Positions 1,152 through 16,046 of a stretch of DNA of 64,000 nt are shown in pieces. The notes under the pieces are model-generated. The model saw nothing but the letters and a program-made list of their open reading frames with translations, was not told where the DNA came from and searched no databases. Each line of letters starts with the position of its first letter. Position 1 is the first letter of the stretch. This stretch comes from Tausonia pullulans (lineage: Eukaryota > Basidiomycota > Tremellomycetes > Cystofilobasidiales > Mrakiaceae), in the NCBI GenBank assembly GCA_951802195.1, contig OX637632.1:186001-250000 (forward strand). Reading direction: 5' to 3'. The translations under genes and the position numbers were made by a program.

Positions 1152-3718
1152 TCAAGCCTTCGTCGCCGACTCCCCAGTGAGGTGGGCCTCCTCCCACCGG
1201 AGGGCCGCCTCCTCCTGGGCCTCGCGCCTCTCGAGCGCCCGACGCTCAGCGTCCCGCTCGGCCCGCATCCGCTCCTGCTTGGCCCGGAACACCGCGACAC
1301 GGGCGTCCGACTCGTCGCCCTGCATTGACGGCGGGGGAGGCGGCCCCATGCCAGAGGACGAGGCCGAGCCCGATCGGCTCATGGGGACGGCGGCGATGAC
1401 AGGGTGGACTGCATTGACCGGGTTGAAGCCGTCTGGCGCGCGAGGGGAGGGGTCGGCAGAGTGGTACCCCGTGTAGGGCTGGATCGGCTGCGGAGGTAGC
1501 GGCTGATGTTGATGCATGAGAGGAGGAGGGGGGCGAGGAGGACCGTGGCGCGAGACGGGAAGGGCAAGTCCCTGGCCGCTTCCTCCTGCCAACATCTCGG
1601 GCACCGCGAGGGGGCAACCGCTGTCGTACGAGTTGTAAGCCATCGGCGCCGGCTCGAGCTGGGGGTGTGAAGAATAGGGCATGAGGTTTCGAGCGACAGG
1701 GTACGGGACTGAAGGAAGAGGAGGCCGTGCCGGAGACTGCGGGTGGTATGCAGCGTAAAAGACATGCCTCGGGGGAGGCGGCTGCAAGTGCTGCTGCTGC
1801 TGCTCCGAGACGAGGTGCTGAAGGGGCTGGGCCGGGGCGTGGTAAATCTGACGAGGAGCCTGGGATGGGACTGAGACCGACCGAGGGACGGGAGGATGCT
1901 GATAGGGCTGGTGAGGGCGAGGGGAATATGCGTGTTGAGAATGAGCTGTGTGCGAGGCCTGATGGGCAGCCTCGGGAAAGAAGGTATTCGAAGGAGGCGA
2001 GTAGTACAAATCCTGCTCCGACATCTGAGAAGGAAGCGTCGAGACGTTTGAAGGCTCCGGTATGAGGCGCGAAGGATGGGATGCGAGGTGAGGAGGGCGA
2101 GAGGAGGTGGAGGCTGAACTGGGTGAGGGCTGCCGGCAAGCACGGAAATGATGGCCAGCCGGCGGTGTATCAAAAGCAACGGGAGGGGCCTCGACCGGAA
2201 CGCGAGGAGAAAGAATGATCTGCCGAGGAACCTGCGAAAAAAATCGCATGAGAAGACGTCAGATTAAGGCAAGAAGAGAGAGTGAAAAGGGCCAACCTGG
2301 AAGTGAGCGTTGACACCGGCCTGAGAGTCGGCCACCTCTTGACGCGAAGACCGACGACGACGGACAACGCACTGGGTAGGGGCAGAAACTTCCTCGCCAC
2401 GAGAAAGAGCAGATGGGCTCTGGGGTTCGGCCGAGAGAGAGAGCTTCCGCTTCTTGGATGCCCTCTCCTCCCCGCCCGACAGCTCCTCCTCATCCTCCCC
2501 ATCCTGCCCGCTGACACCAACGTCGAGCTCCGACGACGCTGGAGCCATCTTGTCAGAGGACTTGCTCCCTCCGCAGGCGCCAATAGCTCTGGCGTCGACG
2601 ACGCGGGCTTTGATGACGCTTTCCATCCAGTGACGGACCTTGTCCTGGCCGCGCTCGTCGATGTAGTCCTCGATCTCCCGAAGGTCTTTGACGAGCGCTG
2701 GGTCAAGTGTACCGTCCTCATCACGGTAGCGGCGGACGATCTTCTTCATCTGCTCCTTGGTCTGGCCTGTCGTCGTATAGGTGCGGGTAAAGTCGGTCCA
2801 CCCCTGAGCAGAGGGCAAGAGAAACGAATGTCAGCAGTTCTCAAAAACACGAGGAACATGAAAGGGAGCAGAATCCCACCGAGCGGCGGCGCATGTTGGT
2901 GAACCTGTGAGAGAATAGAGGATTGCCATTAATGAAGCCGAACGATGTCACAGGGATAAAGGGAGGGCGCCAGCGCGTGCGGGCGGAAGGAATGGCGCAC
3001 CAGAGGTTGAGACTCTGGACAGTGATACCCTTCTGGGCTGCAAGAACTTTCTTCTCATCGACCTTGGGGAAGGGGTCGTCCATGTGACTGAGGTACCAGT
3101 CGCGAAGGTGACGAAAATTGGCTGGGTTCTCGTTCACGGGCTTGCTCGACTCGGAGGTGACCGCGGTGGTGGACTTAGAATTAGTGCGCTTGAAGGTGGA
3201 GGCACTGGGAGCTGAGGCAGATGCAGAGGCATCTTTCGAGTCTGCAGATATATCCGTGTGGGAGAGTATGTCAGCCTCAGGACCTGGCAAGGCAAAGAAA
3301 GTAAGAAACAGGCCGTACCAGGACAGAATGTCGTCTGATCAAGGGCGGCGTCCACCTCTGCACGCATTGATGCCCTCGCCTTCTCGTCCGCCTCCTCGAT
3401 TTTGATCATCCGAGTAGCAAATTCTTCGATAAACTTCGAGACGATCCCTCCAATGGATCTATCCTCCGGGCTGAGAGACCCAGCAGCTTCTGCAGCGGCC
3501 AGAGTGTCGAGAAGGGCGGCGAGGCTGGCATTGAAACTATCGATGTTTCCATCCTTCAGCGCCGACAAGAAGGCGGGGACGGCGCTCAGAAGCTGTTGGC
3601 GGAGCTGCATGGTGCCGTCGCCGTCCGTGGTGGTTAGTAGAGAGGGAGAAGAGAGAACAAAGGCGCCGGGAGGCTCTCCGCTTGGACCAGGCCCGGCCGG
3701 ATGTGAGCCGTCGCTCAA
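1152..3718 (-). CDS. HD1: HD1 homeodomain mating-type transcription factor
   Basis: This is a nuclear homeodomain protein that, in basidiomycetes, pairs with an HD2 protein from a different mating type to switch on the dikaryotic or filamentous programme. I read five exons: 3718-3319, 3283-3001, 2904-2880, 2803-2297 and 2231-1152, giving 764 residues in one frame. The homeodomain spans about residues 176-236. It is of TALE type: DDPFP sits 25 residues before the tryptophan of WFTNMRRR (W228, F229, N231, R233), the spacing expected with the three-residue loop insertion. The following GW and the basic, acidic and KKRK-containing stretches are typical of HD1. The C-terminal third is rich in Pro, Gln and His and looks like a disordered activation region. 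The start at 3718 faces HD2 across a 192-bp promoter. Odd points are a 35-nt first intron and a 25-nt third exon. The family call is firm. The first intron is the least certain boundary. Confidence 0.93.
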
Positions 3719-3910: not shown

Positions 3911-5815
3911 ATGCTCGAGCACCAGAGGACCCAGACTCTCCTCGGTCGGCTCAAGACGCTTTCGACTGCGCCGGCAGCCGTTGCGCTGAGGGTCCTCCAG
4001 CAGCAACGACGCGATGCCGCCCCCCTCCTCCCGACTCTCGAGTTCTCGCCGCATGACGCCGACTTCCGCCGCCAACTTCACTCCTTCGGCCTTACCAGCG
4101 TCCTCGAGGAGACAATATTGTCGGCATATGTCGCCCATCTCAGCCGGCTTCAAGCTGCAGTCGTCTCGCGATTGGACGGGGCGATCGACGATACCATCCT
4201 CGCGTTGACTCGGCTGAGAGGTTGTGTCTCTTTGGAGGAGTTCAGAAGGCAAGAGTCGTACCAATGGCCTGCCGTCGCTGCTGCATTCCAGGCACTGTAC
4301 AGAAGACACGAAGATCTCCTTCAGCAGAAGGTGCTACGGAAAGTCCGCGAGCGTCGAGCATTCGTGTGCGAGGCCAGACACCGTGGGCCCTTCAACAGCG
4401 TCAGTGTCCCGACCGTTTTCATTTATTTCAAGATCGGACTGTTTCCTTCTGATCTTTCAAATGCTACAGTACGCCACGATGGCCCTTCAGGGCATCTTCG
4501 ACGCGAACGACCACCCTAATCAGGCCGAAGTTGAGTTAATCGCAGAGCTGCTCGGGGTCAAGACCAAGCAAGTTAGCACCTGGGTGGGTGTCCCTCTTCC
4601 TCTTTTTTTCCTCTTCTCACACCAGTAGGACGGAGAAGAAGAGCTAGAAGACGGTGCTGAGAGGCGCGTCTTGACGGAGCGCCGATTTCCAGCTGACTCT
4701 GGCCCTCTCGCTCTCTCCCTTTCTCCTCTCCGCAGTTCTCGAACCGCCGGAGCCGCAAGCCGCCCGTCAAGTCGGTCGCTTCCAAGCGCAAGCCTCTAAA
4801 CGAAATCCAGTCTAGCACCCGCCCCAGCAAGAAGGCCAGGATGTCGATGCAGCAGCCGGCGCCGTTGACGCTTGAGCCGCTCGCGACCGTCGCCAGTACT
4901 GCTGACGTCGCCCATCACTTGGATGCGTCTCTCTCAACTCTAAATGGTCAAGCTGCGGGAGTCCATATCCACCAGGACTCCCACGCTCAAGAGACTGGTC
5001 GGCAGAAGGACAGAGACGTCGATAGGTCAAGCGGGCTCGACGATGCCGCCGTCTTGCCTCACCCCACCTCGGCTGCCCAGATTGGACTTGGCCTTCCTTC
5101 GACTCACCCTCGCAGGCTCAACGTCTCTCTTCCCATGGTCAGCTTCTGCCCCCCGCAGTCGGTCGCCACCTCCTTTGGCTCGGTCTCCTTCGACAGTCTC
5201 TCCTCTTCCGGACTGTCCTCCGACGCCGAGATCGCCCTCATCGAGCGTGTCGCCTCTGGAGCTTCCATCTCCTCCTCCACCTCCTCGTACGTCAGCGCCT
5301 CCTCCCTCTCGTCTTCGGCCTCGTCCGAGTTTGGCGGCGAGGACAGCGGCCCGCGGACCCTCTGGGCCCTAGTTGTCTCGGACCCAGCCTCTTACCTCTC
5401 CATCTTCCCTGCGCCGCCCAGCGTCGCCTCACACCTGCCCACCTTCGTCCTTCCCACCCCCGTCGACGAAGTTCAGCTCACCTTTGTACCCGAGCCGGAA
5501 TACTATGTCCCTCTCGTCTCTGGGTGGCCCATGGTCGAGTTCGCCCTCAGCTCGCAGCAGCGCCCTTGGTCACGCCTTACCCACTCGAGCGTCTCAGGCT
5601 GGTTCCCGACGGAGCTCGAATCGGAATCGTCACTCGCGCTCGACCTCCTCCCGGCCGAGCTCGACGACATTTTCGACTCGTTCGAGGCGAGCGGTGGCGG
5701 GTCCGGCTTCGACTTCCCTCTGGGCGTCGAGGAGGGTCGCCGCACTGGCGACTTAGTTTTTGACGAGTGCGAAGATAACCACCAGGACTCGAGCGAGGTC
5801 TACTCTTTCCTTTGA
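3911..5815 (+). CDS. HD2: HD2 homeodomain mating-type transcription factor
   Basis: This is the HD2 partner of the neighbouring HD1, expected to act in the nucleus as part of an HD1-HD2 heterodimer. Exons are 3911-4399, 4470-4583 and 4736-5815, giving 560 residues. The first part (about residues 45-160) is helical and likely the partner-discriminating dimerisation region. The homeodomain follows at about 165-212, of the typical 60-residue class without the TALE insertion, with helix 3 reading STWFSNRRSRK (W201, F202, N204, R205). Basic clusters just after it (SKRKP, RPSKKARM) look like nuclear localisation signals. The rest is Ser-rich, then acidic at the C-terminus, as in an activation domain. 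The frame is open further upstream, but I chose the ATG at 3911 because the paralogue HD2b begins with a similar ML...TL peptide. Introns of 70 and 152 bp are both phase 0; the second falls exactly after the homeodomain tryptophan codon. Confidence 0.93.
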
Positions 5816-8339
5816 ATGAAGACCGCGATGAACAGCTGGTCTGTCGCCGTCCCTTACATACTTTTGTTGGTTGATTTCTTCTCGTTGTTGTTGCACTTTC
5901 ATCCTGGACTCTCATCACACTCGCTCTTCTGAATCATTCTGTCGATTTTCGCACACTCTCTTCATACACGCCTCTGCGGACCAAAGGCTGCTCCGGAACC
6001 TCTTTTCTAGACTTGCTCGTCGTCGTTCGACCACTGCCGTCTGCCTCTTGCTGGTAGTTGCGCCAGACAATCCAGATGTCCTTGCGTCAAGCTATTTTCT
6101 CTCCCCCCCCCCCCCCCCACTCCTGACGCTAACAGGCCGCCCCCAATAGGCTACGATCGACAAGAATCTTCATCTGAATAACTCAAAAGGACTCTGCTGA
6201 TCTGCTCCCTCACATTCAGAAAGGAACGAGACAGACAAACAAACAACTTCAAGCGCCGCCCGTGCCTTCGGTCCCCCCTCAATCCAGCTCGCAAAACGAT
6301 CGGTGCACACTTTGATTTTCATCCGTTCAAAGAGAGCCGTCTTCGTCCCAACGACGAAAGTATTAAGCTGCTAAGCGACTTACTTCCTCCGGGTTGGGGG
6401 GGAGAAGGAGGAGGAAGAGGAAGAGAGATATGTGGGAGAGGAGGGGAGGGGTTAGGATAGGGGTGGAGAAGGAGGACTGGACCTATTGGAGTTGATATTT
6501 GATCCCATCTGGAAACAAGAGAGAGAGGGTTCTTCTGGGTCAAGAGACATGATGCCAAAGCTTTGGCATCCATAGGGAGGGGATTTACGCTTAGCTCAAG
6601 CGCGGCTCTTGCGATTCCCAAAGATGTGCAAGCTCGGCTAGATCGCTGCATCAACTCAACTGTGTCGGTCGGGCTGCGTCTGACCCAGACAGAAGAAAAC
6701 AGCCGGCTGCATGTGAGCTAGAAATCGGACCTCGCTCCGGCCTGGCGGAGTTTGAGAAGTTTGATGTGGGGGGTCGACAAGGCTCTTTTTTCGCCCGAGC
6801 ACGCGCGTTCAGCCGCCAGTGGCGTCTCAAAGATATGGGCTTGTCACTTTGCTGCCCTCCGTCGGGCATTTCTAAGCGCAGGCCCGATCGATGTCTGATC
6901 ATGGGCCCCCTAAATCTGAAAGGTGGATGGATGGGTGGTGAGCAGGTCCGTTGGGGGGATGGAATCATCGGATAAGCTTTATTTTTTCCTGCAATCTCGC
7001 CTCCCTTGGCTGTCTTCTCCTTTTCCAGGTCAAAGCTTCGATCAGGCAAGCACGCTAAGTCCGTCGATGGTGGGGCCGATGTTAGCTTTCTCGTCACCCC
7101 GCATCTAGACGCTCTCCTCTCCCCCTTGACGTTGCTCGCTTGCTTGGTCCGGAAAGTTGCTCTCAGGTCTCATGTCCGCGCTAAGAAGGGGCAGGGACTG
7201 TCCACAAGGGTGGTGGAGGGGAGCCGGAGAGGAGGACGTAAGTCAACGTCATGTGAAGGAGGCTTGCCCACTCCCTCCTCCACCGGCTGCAGCAGGAAAC
7301 AAAGCTACGAACCTCCAGATAAGCGAAACGTGAGGTGGCGGAACGGAGCATAAAGATACACTGGCCCCTGATCCAGGGTCCGGACACAGACGGCGGCTGT
7401 CGAGATTTCATGCTTTTACTAGAATGTTTGGCCATACTGCCGAAAAACACGCAGCCCCAACTGCAAGAACATAAGCGCCTTCGGCAGAAGGCGTAGTATG
7501 GGAAGGCAGGATCTGTCACCAACTGTCCGACAAGTGGCTAGCTTGATGGAGACCTGAAGCCTTACGTCAGCTCCAGTATATCTCAACAAGTTATTACTAG
7601 GAGTCATCTGTACATCAACCCTCCACCTGTCCTGACCTGTCGACATGGACCAACCATTCAGACATGCAAATTGTTAAGAACGGAGGTCAAGCTCTGACCA
7701 TTTTGACACATGGCCCGATGAAGGCACTTAATCGGATTGCAAGAGACCCGATTTCATAAGACTAAGTTAAGTAGCTAATTGCCAACCAGAACTGTGATGC
7801 TGACACAAACCACCTAACCTAGTCATCTGGACTGCTCGCCGTCGTGGACTAATCGGCACGGCTCGAACCAACTCTCCCCTTCCCCCCCTGGCCATATGAC
7901 ACATGACACACTCTCTGACCTCTCCCCAGGGGCTCTCAAGGCCACGGCGCATCCCCCGACCTACCCGCCTCTCCTCATAAGATGCCAAGTCGAACGAAGC
8001 CTTGCCCGCTCGAGACACGACTACTGCGCCCCCCATGCTACCGATCACCCCTGGACGCCCGTCAGCAAGAATACCCCGGGTGACCTCGCCACTCCCTCTC
8101 AACACTCACCCCGACGAGTTCTTCGACTTGCCGCATCACTAGGTCGCCTCGTGAGAACATTGTCGTTGGAAGCGGCATCATCCGGTCCAACCCGATGCCT
8201 CTCTCCTCCTTGCCCATCGGCGAGACTCTCAACAATCCGCTTTCGCATTCGTCGCCTTACCTCGCGCCAACACCGTCCGCCGCTCTTACGCGACGGTTGC
8301 CCCTACCTCCTCTCTCGCAGACTCTCGCCCTTCCACTAA
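5816..8339. other. Gene-poor stretch downstream of HD2
   Basis: About 2.5 kb without a recognisable gene. It includes the HD2 3' region and a run of C residues near 6102-6119 that may vary in length. There are several open frames on both strands, but none has a domain, a repeat or a splice pattern I can support. The end of the stretch (about 7.9-8.3 kb) may be the decayed 5' part of the LINE that follows. Confidence 0.5.
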
Positions 8340-11330
8340 CTCTCACCCCGCCTTCGCCTTCGTAGCTGCATCATATCTTCCTCATAACACTACTCTCTTC
8401 CCCTCTGCCCTCTCGCCAACCGTGGAAACCGCGTCGCCATCTCCGTCTCTTGGGACACTACTCCCCTCGAGATCTTCCCCGTTATATTCAAGTGCGACGA
8501 AGGGATCGCCTGCCTCGCCCGCCCACTTAAAGACTCAAAAGGAAGGATGCTTCTCCAGGACACGGACGGGAAGGACGCGCACGCCACCCTTACCCAGCTC
8601 AAGAGTTTCTCCTCCGAAGTCGCGGGTGTAAAGCCGCAGATCCACTCCTGCTACAACACCCGGCACGAGTGTCTGTGGGAGGGCTGGATATAAAGATTTT
8701 TGAAGAAGAGCCCGAGACGGAGGACGAGATCCGGAGGCAGGTGGCTGCCTTTGGTGACGGTGTCGTTATGTTTCAGCGCCAGTATGACCCAAGAGTACCC
8801 GGCGCTCCCACGGTCCGAGTCCGGGTCATGCCTGGACTCTCTGGATCCGAGGATATGCCCAAGGCTGACGTCCTTTGTCAGACATTCACAAGTTGGACGA
8901 ATCACGAGGGCATCTTCAAGCCTATCCAGCCTGCCTCCACCATTATCTCCCCCTCTCGCTCATTGTCGACGTACTGCTGCTACTGCCACTCGATGAAGCA
9001 CGAGCGAGTATAGTGCCCGGTCGACTGCATGCAGAGGATGCGGGCCGAGATTCCATCGCTCTGCTCGCTTCCCAGGCCGTCCCAAGGCCACTCTCCCAGT
9101 CGGGACGCAAGTGGCGACCGGAAAAGCGCCCGTAACAGTGGACAACAAGGGCGCCCAGCTCCCTAACAACTCAAATTCAAACAAGCAGCCGATGAACATC
9201 CCTCCTCCGCCCGACTCATTCTTTCCTTCTGTGGATGATCGAACTTGTATGGACGACGAATTACTCGACGGGATCAGCCCCCATACCAATAGTCACGGAG
9301 GGAATTAGAGGAGAGCGATCGCTCGCGCCTTCGCGCTCACAGACCGTTCCATAGTCTTGGATAATACAAGAACAGCACCCATCTCCTCAGACTCAGAGGG
9401 TTTTTTGAGTTCTCTCTTCGTCACATTCGTCCCCAGTTGGTTTCATAGAGCGCTCACAGATCTCGACGAACTCTTCCAGGTCTAGGACAAGACCAAGCTC
9501 CAAATTGCTCAATGGGCCTCCGACACCTCATGTCTTATCACCCACCTCGACAGATTTTTGGGAAGAAATCCACAAATGTCTTTGCTTGAAATCCATGCTT
9601 CCCGAGCCCACCTCGACCCGGCCAATACGAACGACTATGCCGTCAGACAACGCCTCAATATCGTCCGACAAGTCGACACCAACGGCGCTTTCCGCCTCAT
9701 CGACAACCCCTTGGCCGAAGAGGTCACCTCCATCCTCGATATCCTCGACTTCCTCGACATCCTCGTTACCGCCCACTCCTTCATCACTCTATATGAGCCC
9801 AAACCGACACCAGCCGACCAGGACGGTAAAGTCCTCGACTACGTCACTAGCAAACCCGGAATGTCCCAGAGCCGGGACCTCGTGAGTCCCTTCGATCTCG
9901 CCTCGCTCAAGTTCCGCCCTTTCAGATTGAACCGCAATAAGACGCCCGGAAGTGACGGAATCCCGGTCGAGATCTACCAGGCGACCTGGAGTGTGACGGC
10001 CCGATCCTCTCCGACTTGTTGAACCACGTCCCCGAGACAGGCTCTCGCTCCCTTCCCAGCGCGAGGCACACATCCACTTCATCTTCAAGGAGAAGGGCGT
10101 CCGAGACAATCTCATCAACTACCTCCCATATCCCTGCTCAGCGTAGACGCTCGTCTCTTCTCCTCACCATAAACAGCCGCCTGCTGTCTGTCATCGACTC
10201 GATCGTCGACGCCGATCAGGCGGGCTTCCTCCCGGGCCGCAACTCTGGTCGCGGCTCTAGCCGAAACATATCCGCACTCCAGTGACGCTCCACGACTGGC
10301 GTATCCTGACCGCGTCGTTCAAGCTCTTGAAGGTCTCTTGCGCGCGTGATGTCAATCTGGATCGCATCTGGTCGGCCGTCATCAAGACCCAGAAGACCCG
10401 CTTGACCCGTTCTCCGTTTCACGGCCTCCCGCTCATCGCTCGGTGCAAGTTCATCAGTCCGTACACCTACTCGAAGGTGATCTACCTTGACCGCTTTCAA
10501 CCCTGCCTCAAGCCCCTCCTCAACGACTTCGAGAACACAGATTACGACGCTACTTGGAGCTCACGCCGTCCGCAGATTCAAAGACTTGGACTGGGGATCC
10601 CCGTGAGCATGGCGGGATTGGCTTCCCCTCGCTTGTTTAAGGCCTCCGTCCTACTCGATCCCAGTGGATTTGCGACGTCCTCTTCCTACCAGAGCTTCAA
10701 TCGTTGGCCTGCATCCGGACCTGCCTCATCAACACGATCCGCAGCCAGTCAAACGACTTCAGGGTTGATACCATCGTCCGCAGGCCCGGCGACCGCACGG
10801 TACCTGTCCAGGACGAAATTTACGGCTGGGCAGGTCTCTTCATTCCCCTACCCTTCGACCCTCACTTCTCCTGGTGCTGCTGTTCCATTCAGGAGCTGCG
10901 ATGCGCTCTCCCCGCACGCTGGCGCGCCAACCTGGACGCCTGGAACAAGGAGCTTTACTTCGGTGCTAGGTATCGGGATGTGCGGCTCTGGAGGTGAACA
11001 GTCTACCTTATCAATAAGAACCTCCGCCCACTTTCTTAGATCCCTTCGTGCTTCTTGACGCAGCATGTGTCCACCACGACATCCCCGGACAAGCTCGCCG
11101 CCGGGCTGGCTAAGTAGGTTGGAAGCGACGCTGGCGTCGCGTCAGCTCAAGGACCTTTCCCGAGCCTCGCCTGAGGGCGTCGACCTCGCTCATCGTTTCT
11201 CCATCTTTGTCATCCATTCGGGCAAGCATTCCGCTTTGGCGTCGTTGAAGAAGTGGAAACGGAGTGGCGGAGGTGGCCCGGTTCGCTCCAAGGTCTTGGG
11301 CAGGTTTGTTGAGTCCAAATGATCGTCAAA
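8340..11330 (+). mobile_element. Decayed non-LTR retrotransposon (LINE, Tad/L1-like)
   Basis: Translated pieces of both usual LINE reading frames are present in order on the plus strand. ORF1-like sequence (about 8.4-9.1 kb) includes VVMFQRQYDP and a CCHC zinc-knuckle pattern, C-x2-C-x4-H-x4-C, near 8970-9015, with a stop codon inside the knuckle. ORF2 follows: reverse-transcriptase blocks NRNKTPGSDGIPVEIYQ near 9930, FKEKGVRDNLINYLP near 10085 and VDADQAGFLPGRNS near 10205-10250. The sequence then jumps to a thumb-like block ending in GLGIPVSMAGLASPRLFKAS (about 10590-10645), so the palm with the YxDD active site appears deleted. Frame changes and stops are frequent. I saw no poly(A) tail or target-site duplication, so both ends are approximate. 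The copy is dead and fairly old. It sits between the two HD2-type genes. Confidence 0.8.
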
Positions 11331-13672
11331 GCGCAGAACAAAAACCTATGATGAACTGGGGACAAGAGCGAGGAGGATGAGGAAGCAAAAGAGTGTGGGG
11401 CAGATGGCGAAGAAGAGAGAGGGAAGAATAACGATGCAAGGAGCGTGGGACGATGTGGCGAAAAAAGGAAATTAGGAACAGAAAGCAAGGAAGAGGTTAC
11501 AGAGGCGCGTAGTTGGCCAGGCGTAGTCCGCGAGATCCTGACAACCTCGCCGATGTCAAGGACGACGAGATCTGACTGGCCACATCCATCATTCGGCACA
11601 AACATCAGCCGACGAACACGAGGAAGTGGGAAGGTCAACGAGCTGGGACTGGGGGGGATGCTGATGGCGGTGAAGGGGGTGATGGTAGTGATGGCGGTGG
11701 CAATGGCGGCCATGGCGGCCATGGCGACGATGGCTGAGGGCTGAAGAGCGTCCGGATGTCGAGCGGTCGTTCGGACTCTCGGCGTCAGACTTGCGCCTTG
11801 CATCCCCCTTCCTTTCCAGCCTCCTATTCCTCCTCTCCCCCTTTTGTAATCTGTAAGCTCCCCTCCCCTTCCTCCCTAGTTAGATCCTTCCTCTTTTCCC
11901 CTCTCGCCAGCTCTCACTAGGTACCATCTTCTTAGCTTGATCCATGGCTTGGACACAGACACAAAACAGAACAAAAACAAGATCCTGACACAGTGTCGGG
12001 AGGAGTCAGCTCTGTCTCGCTTGGGTACGGGTATAGCCACCGGTACCTATCCGCTGAAACGAGACCTACATGAACACGGGTCATCGAAAAAAATAAAGAG
12101 GAGGCGCCCTGTCTCAAAAGGCGTCCGCTTGATGATGAAATCCGTCTGTCCTTTCCGTCGGACGGAGGAATCGATATGGGCTGAGAACGTCAGATGGCAC
12201 CCGGCGGCCGCTTGGACTGCTTCCGAGAAGGTTCATGGGCGGCACGCAGAAACAAACAGTCGCGTTCCTCCCGCGTCAGCAGCCCGCTATGCTCTGAAAC
12301 ATCGCTTGCTAGGACAGGAAACAAGGACGAAACAAGGGAGAACCGCCCTCCGGAAAAAAGGAGGCACGCGATCCTTGACTTCTCCGGACCGGATCGCGGA
12401 GAAGAAGAGAGAAGACGAACCGGATCGAAATAAGACAGTGACGGGCCCGGTGGGTGCGGCATGATCACTCAGGGACAGTCTTCCGGCCAGCAGTGGTGCC
12501 AGAGAAGACCAGATTGGATGGAAGAGGCAGGCGACAGATCGCTAGTCTGGTGGCTTCGCATGGGAGGAGAAACAAGCGAGGTGGCAATTGGCGCGGGGAG
12601 AAAGTCGGGGAGCATGGACGCCCGCCCGCCGGATCTGATCTCTCTCGTGTGGGCTCGGTTGCGCTTGTGTGAAATAAAGCCAAGGAACAAGCGGTGAAGG
12701 ATCCTGGGTTGATAAACGTCTCGAAAAGTGGCCAGGCTCGAGTGGCTCGAGAAAAAAAAATCATTTGCGTCGGTTGTGTGAGGGCGCTCGCCCGCCCACG
12801 CCTTGAGGTGAAGATTAAGGGAGCACGCGGTCCTGTCCGTTTCGTTCGGGGCCAAAGACCGTTCGTTGCCAAATGACCAAGGAGTGAACGAGAGATCATC
12901 CCTCGGGAGGCGCAATAACGCGTGCGCAGGAAGGGGTTCAAGGGTGAGGAGTAGGTTTCCGTCTGCGTGGCAACAGTCAGAGAGCCGAGGGTGGCAGTGG
13001 CGTGATGCGCACAAACCTGTCTGCTCATCTCCCAGCCGACCCCACCACCCACTCACCCGAGGGCGCCCGTCTTTGCTTGGGCTGCCCGCTAGGGCCTAGC
13101 TGTGACTGCTGCTGTCCGCACAGTCATAGCGATGGATGCAGGTGCGGGACTTGCTCGCTTCAGACAAGCAATGGATGGAGAAGCTCTCGTGGGGAATGAA
13201 ACGCGGAGGGCTGAAGCGAGAACTCGCCGTCGGAACACGTCAACTTTCGGGAAAGCGGGCAGCATTCGCCTCGGGGACTAATAATTCCCCGCCTTTCTCT
13301 CGAACAAGACAGGGAGGGAGAAGCCGGGGGAGGGGGGGGTTTCGCGGGTGTCGGTCGGCACTCCCCCAGATCCAACCAAAGTTGAGGGGAGGGCAAGGTC
13401 GGCGCCAATTGCAAGGCCGTCAGCCCCGCCCCCGCGCGCTGCCATCGAGCAGGGCACTCTCCTTATACCCGGTCGGTTGAACGGTGAACCCGTCCTGAGA
13501 GGGAGAAGAAGGTCCCGGGCGGCTCCTGTCTGCTTCTGATCGATCTGGCCAACAACCAACCCCCGCCCCCCATCCCCCCCGTGGTCTCGTCCCAAGGCCA
13601 AGGCCCCTTTCTCGAAGTCAAGGGAGACGTTTCCCTTTGACCACCTTCTTCGTCCTCGCCTACGCCCGCACG
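11331..13672. other. Gene-poor stretch upstream of HD2b
   Basis: About 2.3 kb without a supported gene. A short GC-rich repeat (units of atggcggcc and atggcggtgg) lies at about 11660-11745. I searched the minus strand for an HD1-like partner facing HD2b and saw no WFxNxR block or TALE motif. The final few hundred bases must include the HD2b promoter and are rich in pyrimidine runs. Confidence 0.5.
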
Positions 13673-16046
13673 ATGTTGAGACGCCCGGAGGATGACACTC
13701 TCGCGCTCGTGCGCAAGCTCCATTCCTTCACAAACGACAACTTCTCCAGCTCCAGCTCCTCAATCTCCCTCTCGCCGTCGTCATCACCTCCGCCACTGCA
13801 GGACACCTCCGCCGCATCGTCCCTCCGTTGGTCGCAGTCCTCGACGTCGACGTCCAGCGTCTCGCCGTCCTTCGACGACAGTGCCCCTATCGAGTTTGGT
13901 CAGCTCGCCCTCTCGGCCATCGAGGCCAACGCTACTACCGCTGCCTCCCCCCCCCCCTCTAACGATGCTTTTGCCCGGGAGCTTTCCACTCTCGGACTCG
14001 AGGATGCTGCCGTCACCGGTCTCCTTGACGTCTATCGGCGGGTCGTCCGGAGCGCAGAGGACACGACTGCCGAGGCCTACGAAGAGGCGACTACGATCTC
14101 CCGCCAGGCGCTCGCTCGCCTCCAGGCGGCTGTCACTCCTGACGAGTTTGATGAGCATTTCGCCCAGTCCGTGCCCCAGCTCCTACCTGCCGCGTACGAG
14201 CGCGCCCACCGTGAGCACCTCTCGGCCCTCAACGACGTTGCCCTCGCTGCGGTCCGAGCGCGCTGTCTTCAAAAACCACACGGAGTCAAGGTTCCCCGTC
14301 CTGGACTGGCGCCCGTGAGTGTTGACGTGTCTTTGTTGTGTCTCTCTGTCTCTATATATATTTCCCTCCATATATATTTCCTATCTTTCTCTGCCTTCTC
14401 TGCGTCTCTTTCACTCTTTCCCCCCTCACCCTCTCCCCTCTGCATCCGCCTGCGCGCGTCGTCGGCTTTCTCCCTGTGTCCATGTCCTGCCTCTCCTCCA
14501 TCCTCCCTCATCAACCCTCATCACTTTCATCTTCCTTCACTTTCCCGTCACTCTCACAGCATACAGCTCCCGTGCTTGCTAGCCTCGGCCTCTACTTCCG
14601 TCTCACGCCTCGGTCTTGTCTGGTCTACCTCCGATAAGGGGAGTGCCACTTGAAATTTCGGCCAGAGGTCGCTGACCCCTGTCTTTCGTCGTGTCTTTAG
14701 AAATCCGCCGCCCTCCTCAAGCAAGTCTACGCTCAGAACATGTACCCAAATTCGGCAGAGCTCCGGTCGCTGGCGTCGCAGATTGGCATCTCATACAAGC
14801 AGTGCCGCGTCTGGGTACGTCGCTTGGTCCATCTCGTCTGACCCACCGCCGGTGGCGCGCGCGCGCCCAGGTGAAACGCCGCTGACTCGGTTGGCCCTTC
14901 CTCCCTTCCTTCCTCCAACACTTGCCCTTGACTTCGTCCGCTTCTTCATGCCACTAAATTTCCATCTCACAGTTTCAAAATCGACGAAACCGCAAGGACC
15001 GCTCTGCCAGCGGCCCTGGCCCTGACAGGTCTGTCTCGACGAGCCCTGGTCACGACTCGTTCCTTTCGGTCGAGCCGCGGCCAGCTGGCGGCGCTGCTGT
15101 AGCCTCGTCGTCTGGGGCTGTCTTTGAGCAGCAGCAGAAGCAGAAACTTCGGTCTGTGTCGTCGACGTCGTTCAAGCGGGCACCTCGTCCCATCCGGATT
15201 GTCCAGCCCTCGGACTCGGAGGACTCGGTGCTCGTCGACTCGTCCTGGGGGCTCAACAGCTCGCCAACCACGCACAATGGCGAACGGAAATTGGGTCTCA
15301 AGTCGGCCGAGCTCTCGCCTCTCCCCTTCTCTCTCCGCCACGGTGACATCAACCTCGGCTTCCCCTCTTCCCAGCCTCAGCATCTCTCGAGCGCCTCTTC
15401 CCGGCCCACTTCTGCATATTCCTCTACGCCTTCCGCCTCCTCTGTCGAGTCCTCTGTTCCTGCTCAGTTTGCCTACTACGCTCCTCCCATCGCGGGCCCC
15501 TCAGCTCGTCCTCCGCGACACGTCCCTCTCTCATTCCATCCCTCCACCTCTCGGCTCGATATCGTTGCCTCAACGTCTTCCTCTGCTCCTTTCGATCTCC
15601 TTTCTACCATCCCCACCCACATCGACCCTGAAGCGCTCTGGTCCGTCGCCACGGAGGATCCCTCCCCACCATATGCGACCTTCACAGCGGCGCCTCTGGT
15701 CCCAACGCATCTCTCCTTTGAGCCTCCTCTACCGGCCAGCGAAATCGCCTCCGCCTCATACTGCCACCACCCGGCGTATGAGACCGTTGGCTCCTACGTC
15801 CTCCAAAGCCACGACACCCCACACCAGCCCTCGTTCGTTGTCCCGTCCGCCAACGAGAATTATTGGGCTGAACTCCTCGACCTGCCGCCCCAGGAGGCCT
15901 CGGCGTGGCAGGGCGCTGGTGAGCTCTCGGTCGGCTTTGACGACATGTTCAACGGCTTCTTTGGCTTTGGGCTCCCCGCTCCTGCTAGCGATTTTGTCGA
16001 CATCGACGGCGCTGGCTTTGAGGAGGGCTTTGTGATGGCCTGCTGA
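13673..16046 (+). CDS. Second HD2-type homeodomain protein (HD2b)
   Basis: A second homeodomain gene paralogous to the HD2 at 3911. Exons are 13673-14314, 14701-14814 and 14973-16046, giving 609 residues. The N-terminus repeats the HD2 plan: an opening ML...TLALVRKLHSF, then a region (about residues 95-205) aligning with HD2 around LGL, ALARLQAAVTPDEF and the AAVRARC helix. The homeodomain ends at W252 with VWFQNRRNRKDR (F253, N255, R256), typical class with no TALE insertion, preceded by YPNSAELRSLASQIG. A Ser/Pro-rich insertion fills residues 25-95. The C-terminus is acidic and aromatic (FDDMFNGFFGF), echoing the acidic tail of HD2. Both introns fall at the same positions and phases as in HD2 and the middle exon is 114 nt in both genes; the first intron is 386 bp. 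An in-frame ATG at 13637 is an alternative start. The protein looks intact. Identity to HD2 is low, so the duplication is old or has diverged fast. Confidence 0.92.

Follow-up and report, generated by a model that had tools for sequence, protein, structure and literature searches.

Self/non-self recognition by HD1 and HD2 homeodomain proteins is a textbook compatibility system, and the homeodomain (HD) locus of Tausonia pullulans analysed here raises the question of what a second HD2 gene does beside such a pair. The window, meaning the whole 64,000-nucleotide stretch that was analysed (C13:186001-250000 of a 23.86 Mb genome in 21 contigs), holds an HD1 gene, its HD2 partner (HD2a) and a further HD2-type gene (HD2b), which judging from its sequence is most likely an HD2 paralogue. 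HD2b is intact and single-copy, shares homology with HD2a in both the N-terminal segment and the homeodomain, and is almost unchanged in exon 1 across three database records. Our preferred explanation, to which we assign a probability of roughly 0.55, is that HD2b arose by duplication of the mating HD2, was kept at the HD locus with no HD1 partner and now stands outside self/non-self recognition. The features concerned are the following:

1152..3610, minus strand: HD1, TALE/KN homeodomain gene; modelled exons 3610-3319, 3241-3001, 2904-2880, 2803-2297 and 2231-1152; 714 amino acids
3611..3910, no strand: divergent HD1/HD2a promoter region, about 300 bp, from the start codons
3911..5815, plus strand: HD2a, the HD2 paired with HD1; exons 3911-4399, 4470-4583 and 4736-5815; 560 amino acids
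8400..11300, no strand: degenerate multicopy element in the HD2a-HD2b spacer, from genome matches
13673..16046, plus strand: HD2b, orphan second HD2; exons 13673-14314, 14701-14814 and 14973-16046; 609 amino acids

Rebuilt gene models bear out the initial annotation of this locus in its claim of a second intact HD2-like gene 8 kb downstream of a divergent HD1/HD2 pair. The start codons of HD1 (minus strand) and HD2a (plus strand) lie about 300 bp apart (3610 vs 3911), and HD2b follows 7.9 kb downstream of HD2a on the same strand. As first described, both HD2 genes share two phase-0 introns and a middle exon of 114 nt; each has three exons, and every intron has GT-AG boundaries, the lengths being 70 and 152 nt for HD2a and 386 and 158 nt for HD2b. 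In the HD2a/HD2b alignment the first introns coincide, as do the second ones, which separate Trp48 from Phe49 in the homeodomain. Since a phase-0 intron at Trp48|Phe49 is also present in L004 (contig C5), a non-HD2 homeodomain gene of the same genome, only the first intron is distinctive; no intron was found at that position in the open frames of L003, L004, L007 and L009. The homeodomain of HD1 matches PF05920 (Homeobox_KN) with 40.6 bits when the first 356 of 714 modelled residues are scanned, and this family has two matches in the genome, HD1 as the only one on contig C13 and a TALE gene on C10. HD1 also carries an intron at Trp48, which lies inside the codon (phase 2; window 2880-3001), one base off the phase-0 site of HD2a, HD2b and L004.

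The relationship between the two HD2 genes was assessed from their N-termini. The helical segments (residues 46-155 of HD2a and 95-205 of HD2b) align with one gap of a single residue and a z-score of 9.6, a value reached by none of 1000 shuffles, and the whole N-termini gave a z-score of 8.7 (0/2000 shuffles). The similarity of helical N-termini proposed earlier is thereby found to exceed shuffles, and the resemblance between the two homeodomains does so too; the 'ML...TL' start proposed alongside it is too short to count as evidence. Fourteen controls were compared: six proteins taken as HD2, seven non-HD2 homeodomain proteins and HD1, with the homeodomain genes L008 and L002/L010 outside the set. 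Among the six HD2 references, two bear a mating-type name in the database and the other four are hypothetical proteins assigned by architecture, while the controls from the same genome were cut out of open frames, in one case after deletion of a stop sign. Comparisons of whole N-termini were noisy from serine-rich stretches, and the helical segment was used for these controls. For bW of Sporisorium, z was 4.8 against HD2a and 3.9 against HD2b; the five remaining HD2 references scored 0.6 to 3.1 and -0.5 to 4.3, respectively, and HD1 2.5 and 2.3; for the seven non-HD2 proteins z ranged from -0.4 to 1.7.

AlphaFold predicts a common plan for the two exon-1 products: a short helix is followed by one of 41 or 43 residues, and what remains is also helical. 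Helices were modelled at residues 50-58, 63-103 and 108-157 of HD2a (mean predicted local distance difference test score, pLDDT, 78.5) and at 97-106, 111-153, 156-165 and 170-200 of HD2b (mean pLDDT 69.2, with the first 90 residues mostly below 60). The two models share alignment rows, each having been made with the other protein included, and are not independent. Comparison of the HD2a exon-1 model, the only one so compared, with folds in the PDB gave 0/78 matches at E<=0.001.

Both proteins carry the homeodomain expected from the initial annotation, a non-TALE type ending in WFxNRRxR. PF00046 (Pfam Homeodomain) is matched with 45.1 bits by HD2a and 45.0 bits by HD2b (cut-off 22.9), and the recognition helices read WFSNRRSR in HD2a and WFQNRRNR in HD2b, so that HD2b has the typical non-TALE homeodomain with conserved WFxNxR by which HD2 proteins are defined. 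Its homeodomain scores 102 with two HD2 references. The acidic tails described earlier were likewise found, acidic residues (D+E) outnumbering basic ones (K+R) by 43 to 20 in the tail of HD2a and by 35 to 18 in HD2b, and by 16 to 2 and 11 to 0, respectively, over the last 60 residues. The C-terminal similarity of the two proteins (z 6.7) lies in low-complexity sequence and carries little weight.

In the best homeodomain tree, HD2a and HD2b form a pair (support 81/85) within an HD2-type group of eight rows (83/93). The tree left out the long-branched HD1, L007 and L009, a 17-row tree including them being poorly resolved, and both HD2a and HD2b sit on long branches, for which the tool issued a warning. 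We take the pairing of HD2a with HD2b inside the HD2-type group as suggestive only.

If HD2b were a recognition gene, variation would be expected in its N-terminal part, as HD2 alleles vary most at the N-terminus according to excerpts of the published work (PMC2916851, PMC10977897). A profile search for relatives, in which 7999 candidates were scored, returned 19 proteins at E<=10. Nine of these are references used in the tree and N-terminal comparisons (P0004-P0008, P0010, P0013, P0015, P0018), seven stand outside all counts, and the remaining three records (P0001-P0003, on four contigs) are HD2b relatives that cover exon 1 and, by read-through, part of the adjoining intron. Compared with the HD2b exon 1 of the window, they differ at 3, 3 and 4 of 214 residues without insertions or deletions (indels); P0001 and P0002 have the same exon-1 sequence, from which P0003 departs at 3 residues. 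Within the read-through intron, P0002 differs at 8 of 88 aligned residues and the frame is shifted by indels in P0001 and P0003. HD2b exon 1 thus looks to be under coding constraint with low polymorphism, nearly invariant in the three records found. With full-length HD2b as query and scoring over residues 95-270, none of 7588 candidates reached E<=0.01, and no HD2b relatives were present among 318 pattern stretches in GTDB contigs. HD2a exon 1, searched against the same database as the profile, yielded 548 candidates and none at E<=10. Since the HD2a allele of the window should have appeared if it were in the sources of P0001-P0003, these sources probably carry other HD2a alleles, or the open reading frame (ORF) was unassembled or unpredicted; HD2a seems, on this slender basis, variable among sources.

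A nearly invariant HD2b beside a variable HD2a disfavours the view that HD2b is a second specificity gene, and on this limited evidence HD2b would bear no mark of one. The extra specificity heterodimer with HD1 suggested in the initial annotation is disfavoured by the same near-invariance of exon 1 in three records. One form of this view, which we regard as unlikely, sees in HD2b the remaining half of a second HD1-HD2 sublocus of the kind present in Agaricomycetes, still acting in specificity by dimerising with non-self HD1. It would explain why HD2b keeps an HD2a-like N-terminal segment, and the layout has a counterpart: a tandem extra HD2 beside one HD1 is already known in mushrooms, and the parts of a report on Agaricus bisporus var. 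bisporus H97 available to us (PMC8305134) describe one HD1, a divergent HD2 partner and an extra same-strand tandem HD2, read there as an incomplete second pair. The two cases differ in that the extra HD2 of H97 (b2-2) has a counterpart in a complete pair of var. burnettii with 26% protein identity, whereas HD2b exon 1 is nearly invariant in three records, and in that the two HD2 genes of H97 are about 0.7 kb apart, compared with 7.9 kb and an intervening repeat here (PMC8305134). The near-invariance of exon 1 again speaks against this origin, since N-terminal variation is greatest in specificity genes (PMC2916851, PMC10977897). Further, HD2b has no divergently transcribed HD1 partner gene, the arrangement that defines a specificity pair, and in its vicinity tblastn with HD1 picked up no remnant of an HD1 gene at E<=1. 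The adjacent divergent HD1/HD2 genes themselves are arranged as in Sporidiobolus salmonicolor, Microbotryum lychnidis-dioicae and Puccinia, Pucciniomycotina for which excerpts of the published accounts give one HD1 and one HD2 per haplotype (PMC2916851, PMC4469406, PMC10977897, PMC5295586), in contrast to the two HD2 genes here. Our searches of open-licence papers showed no second HD2 gene in Pucciniomycotina, and HD2b could be called a first for that group only on condition that the organism belongs to it.

In our preferred explanation, the mating HD2 gene would have been duplicated, and the copy, unaccompanied by a partner HD1 gene, would have remained at the HD locus and dropped out of self/non-self recognition. 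HD2b would then encode an unvarying DNA-binding protein of HD2 type that may still dimerise with another HD protein through its helical N-terminal region, and the mismatch of HD1/HD2a alleles would presumably remain the compatibility test. The likeliest role of such a protein would be that of a non-allelic regulator of a step in sexual or filamentous development, although we infer both its partner and its function from sequence features.

Positions 47, 50 and 54 of a homeodomain influence DNA specificity. They are T/S/S in HD2a and V/Q/N in HD2b, with N51 and R53 common to both, and since the recognition helices differ at these positions, HD2b probably binds different or additional targets. 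Like HD2b, all six HD2 references and the three non-HD2 proteins listed, every one of them retrieved via words in common with the query, carry V or I at position 47 together with Q at position 50, which makes HD2a the unusual one; HD2a and HD2b may accordingly differ in the sites that they bind. An intact HD2 that seems non-polymorphic, next to a pair that is polymorphic, would illustrate how a gene can be released from a role in recognition, and HD2b would offer a natural test of which part of an HD2 protein serves specificity and which DNA binding.

Another possibility, somewhat more doubtful than a half-lost sublocus, is that HD2b pairs universally with HD1, or with HD2a in an HD2-HD2 dimer, so that the HD check is bypassed and cells activate themselves. 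A near-invariant HD2 beside HD1 would be at hand in each haploid cell, and in Cystofilobasidium capitatum strong Hd2 homodimerisation has been described, with a proposed replacement of Hd1/Hd2 by it in homothallism, in the available part of the report (PMC8545103). This is a precedent for an HD2 perhaps acting without HD1; the homodimerising Hd2 of that species is an ordinary paired HD2, whereas here a second gene would be concerned (PMC8545103). Were HD2b always to replace HD2a, the apparent variability of HD2a, itself weakly indicated, would be purposeless, and the single STE3 gene found also speaks against self-activation. We are equally sceptical of the extended proposal that an invariant HD2b in a multiallelic HD locus forms dimers with every allelic version of HD1 or HD2a, which would give basal sexual-development activity in every haploid cell and uncouple HD function from mate recognition. 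If HD2b does bypass the compatibility check, it would represent a route to self-fertility.

Several results weigh against HD2b as a fixed duplicate of the mating HD2. A hidden Markov model of six HD2 N-termini ranked HD2a first (10.7 bits) and gave HD2b 7.0 bits, below two shuffles (8.7 and 7.7), so that the profile gives HD2b no independent support. In single-exon genome searches with either HD2b or HD2a as query the other gene was absent from the matches, and tblastn between them gave C-terminal matches only (E 0.016-0.018); the DNA of the two neighbourhoods likewise shares short matches only (best E 0.021). The homeodomain alone discriminates poorly: HD2a and HD2b are identical at 17/46 residues over the stretch compared, and their score of 97 stands next to 94 for HD2b with engrailed and 93 for HD2a with a non-HD2 Trametopsis protein. 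Words shared with the query served to retrieve the HD2 references, which makes comparisons with them lean towards HD2b. In an approximately unbiased (AU) test the placement of HD2b with other homeodomains was not rejected (p 0.113). Finally, the near-invariance rests on exon 1 of three records (four contigs), perhaps from closely related strains or one sample, and the absence of HD2a relatives comes from a word-based search of predicted ORFs.

The AU result, the engrailed score and the occurrence of the Trp48|Phe49 intron in a non-HD2 gene would also fit HD2b being an unrelated homeodomain gene that lies near the HD locus by chance, a case raised in the initial annotation. We judge this very improbable. 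The N-terminal homology between HD2a and HD2b lies above all 14 controls compared, the first intron and the position in the HD locus are shared, and among seven other own-genome homeodomains the best match of HD2b is HD2a (97, next 83). What had been claimed as a second HD2-type gene is therefore upheld by N-terminal homology, the shared first intron and the best tree, which puts HD2b with HD2 proteins, while the non-HD2 placement stays unrejected.

An assembly join of two haplotypes, the other case raised at the outset, is extremely unlikely, as a single full match in the genome was obtained for each of HD1, HD2a, HD2b, STE3 and a nearby gene for a 2-oxoacid dehydrogenase subunit, and no second HD1 was found there, even though a repeat sits between HD2a and HD2b. 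In numbers, HD2b has three genome matches, all within HD2b, and HD2a three strong ones, all within HD2a, besides two weak others (E 0.07-0.08); the dehydrogenase subunit gene has three weak partial matches on C4 in addition to its full one, and the pheromone receptor STE3 occurs a single time, on contig C14, where it was recovered as two adjoining pieces. All this agrees with a haploid assembly in which HD2b is an orphan tandem HD2.

The spacer element (8400-11300) has at least 49 matches in the genome including itself, the others being 67-82% identical and spread over many contigs (40 of 159 candidates scored), and a core of about 880 bp recurs at the same length and 69-70% identity on several contigs. 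We take it to resemble a remnant of a long interspersed nuclear element (LINE)-type reverse transcriptase, going by a sequence motif; no Pfam family was matched in the 3 ORFs tested. GATGN9-10ACA is the pattern of HD1/HD2 heterodimer sites, and its 10 matches in the window, against 10.7 expected, give no signal.

STE3 lies about 3 kb from the gene for the second subunit of RNA polymerase, as in red yeasts, and the genes found for ribosomal L18ae and L6e map to C15 and C7, away from the STE3 contig, an arrangement that differs from the red-yeast pheromone/receptor (P/R) order given in the accessible part of a report (PMC3236058). The placement in Microbotryomycetes implied in the initial annotation was accordingly not confirmed. 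The surroundings of STE3 (L013/L014, G000:C14:619500-639200) also include genes for a ubiquitin-conjugating enzyme, an ABC1 kinase and a proteasome-lid-like protein (PCI/PSD13). A further locus, L007 (G000:C14:442502-445624), shares this contig at a distance of about 185 kb from STE3; it has a long open frame of 409 codons with a homeodomain match at 1501-1623, where the homeodomain-like helix reads WFKARERR and lacks the usual Asn51.

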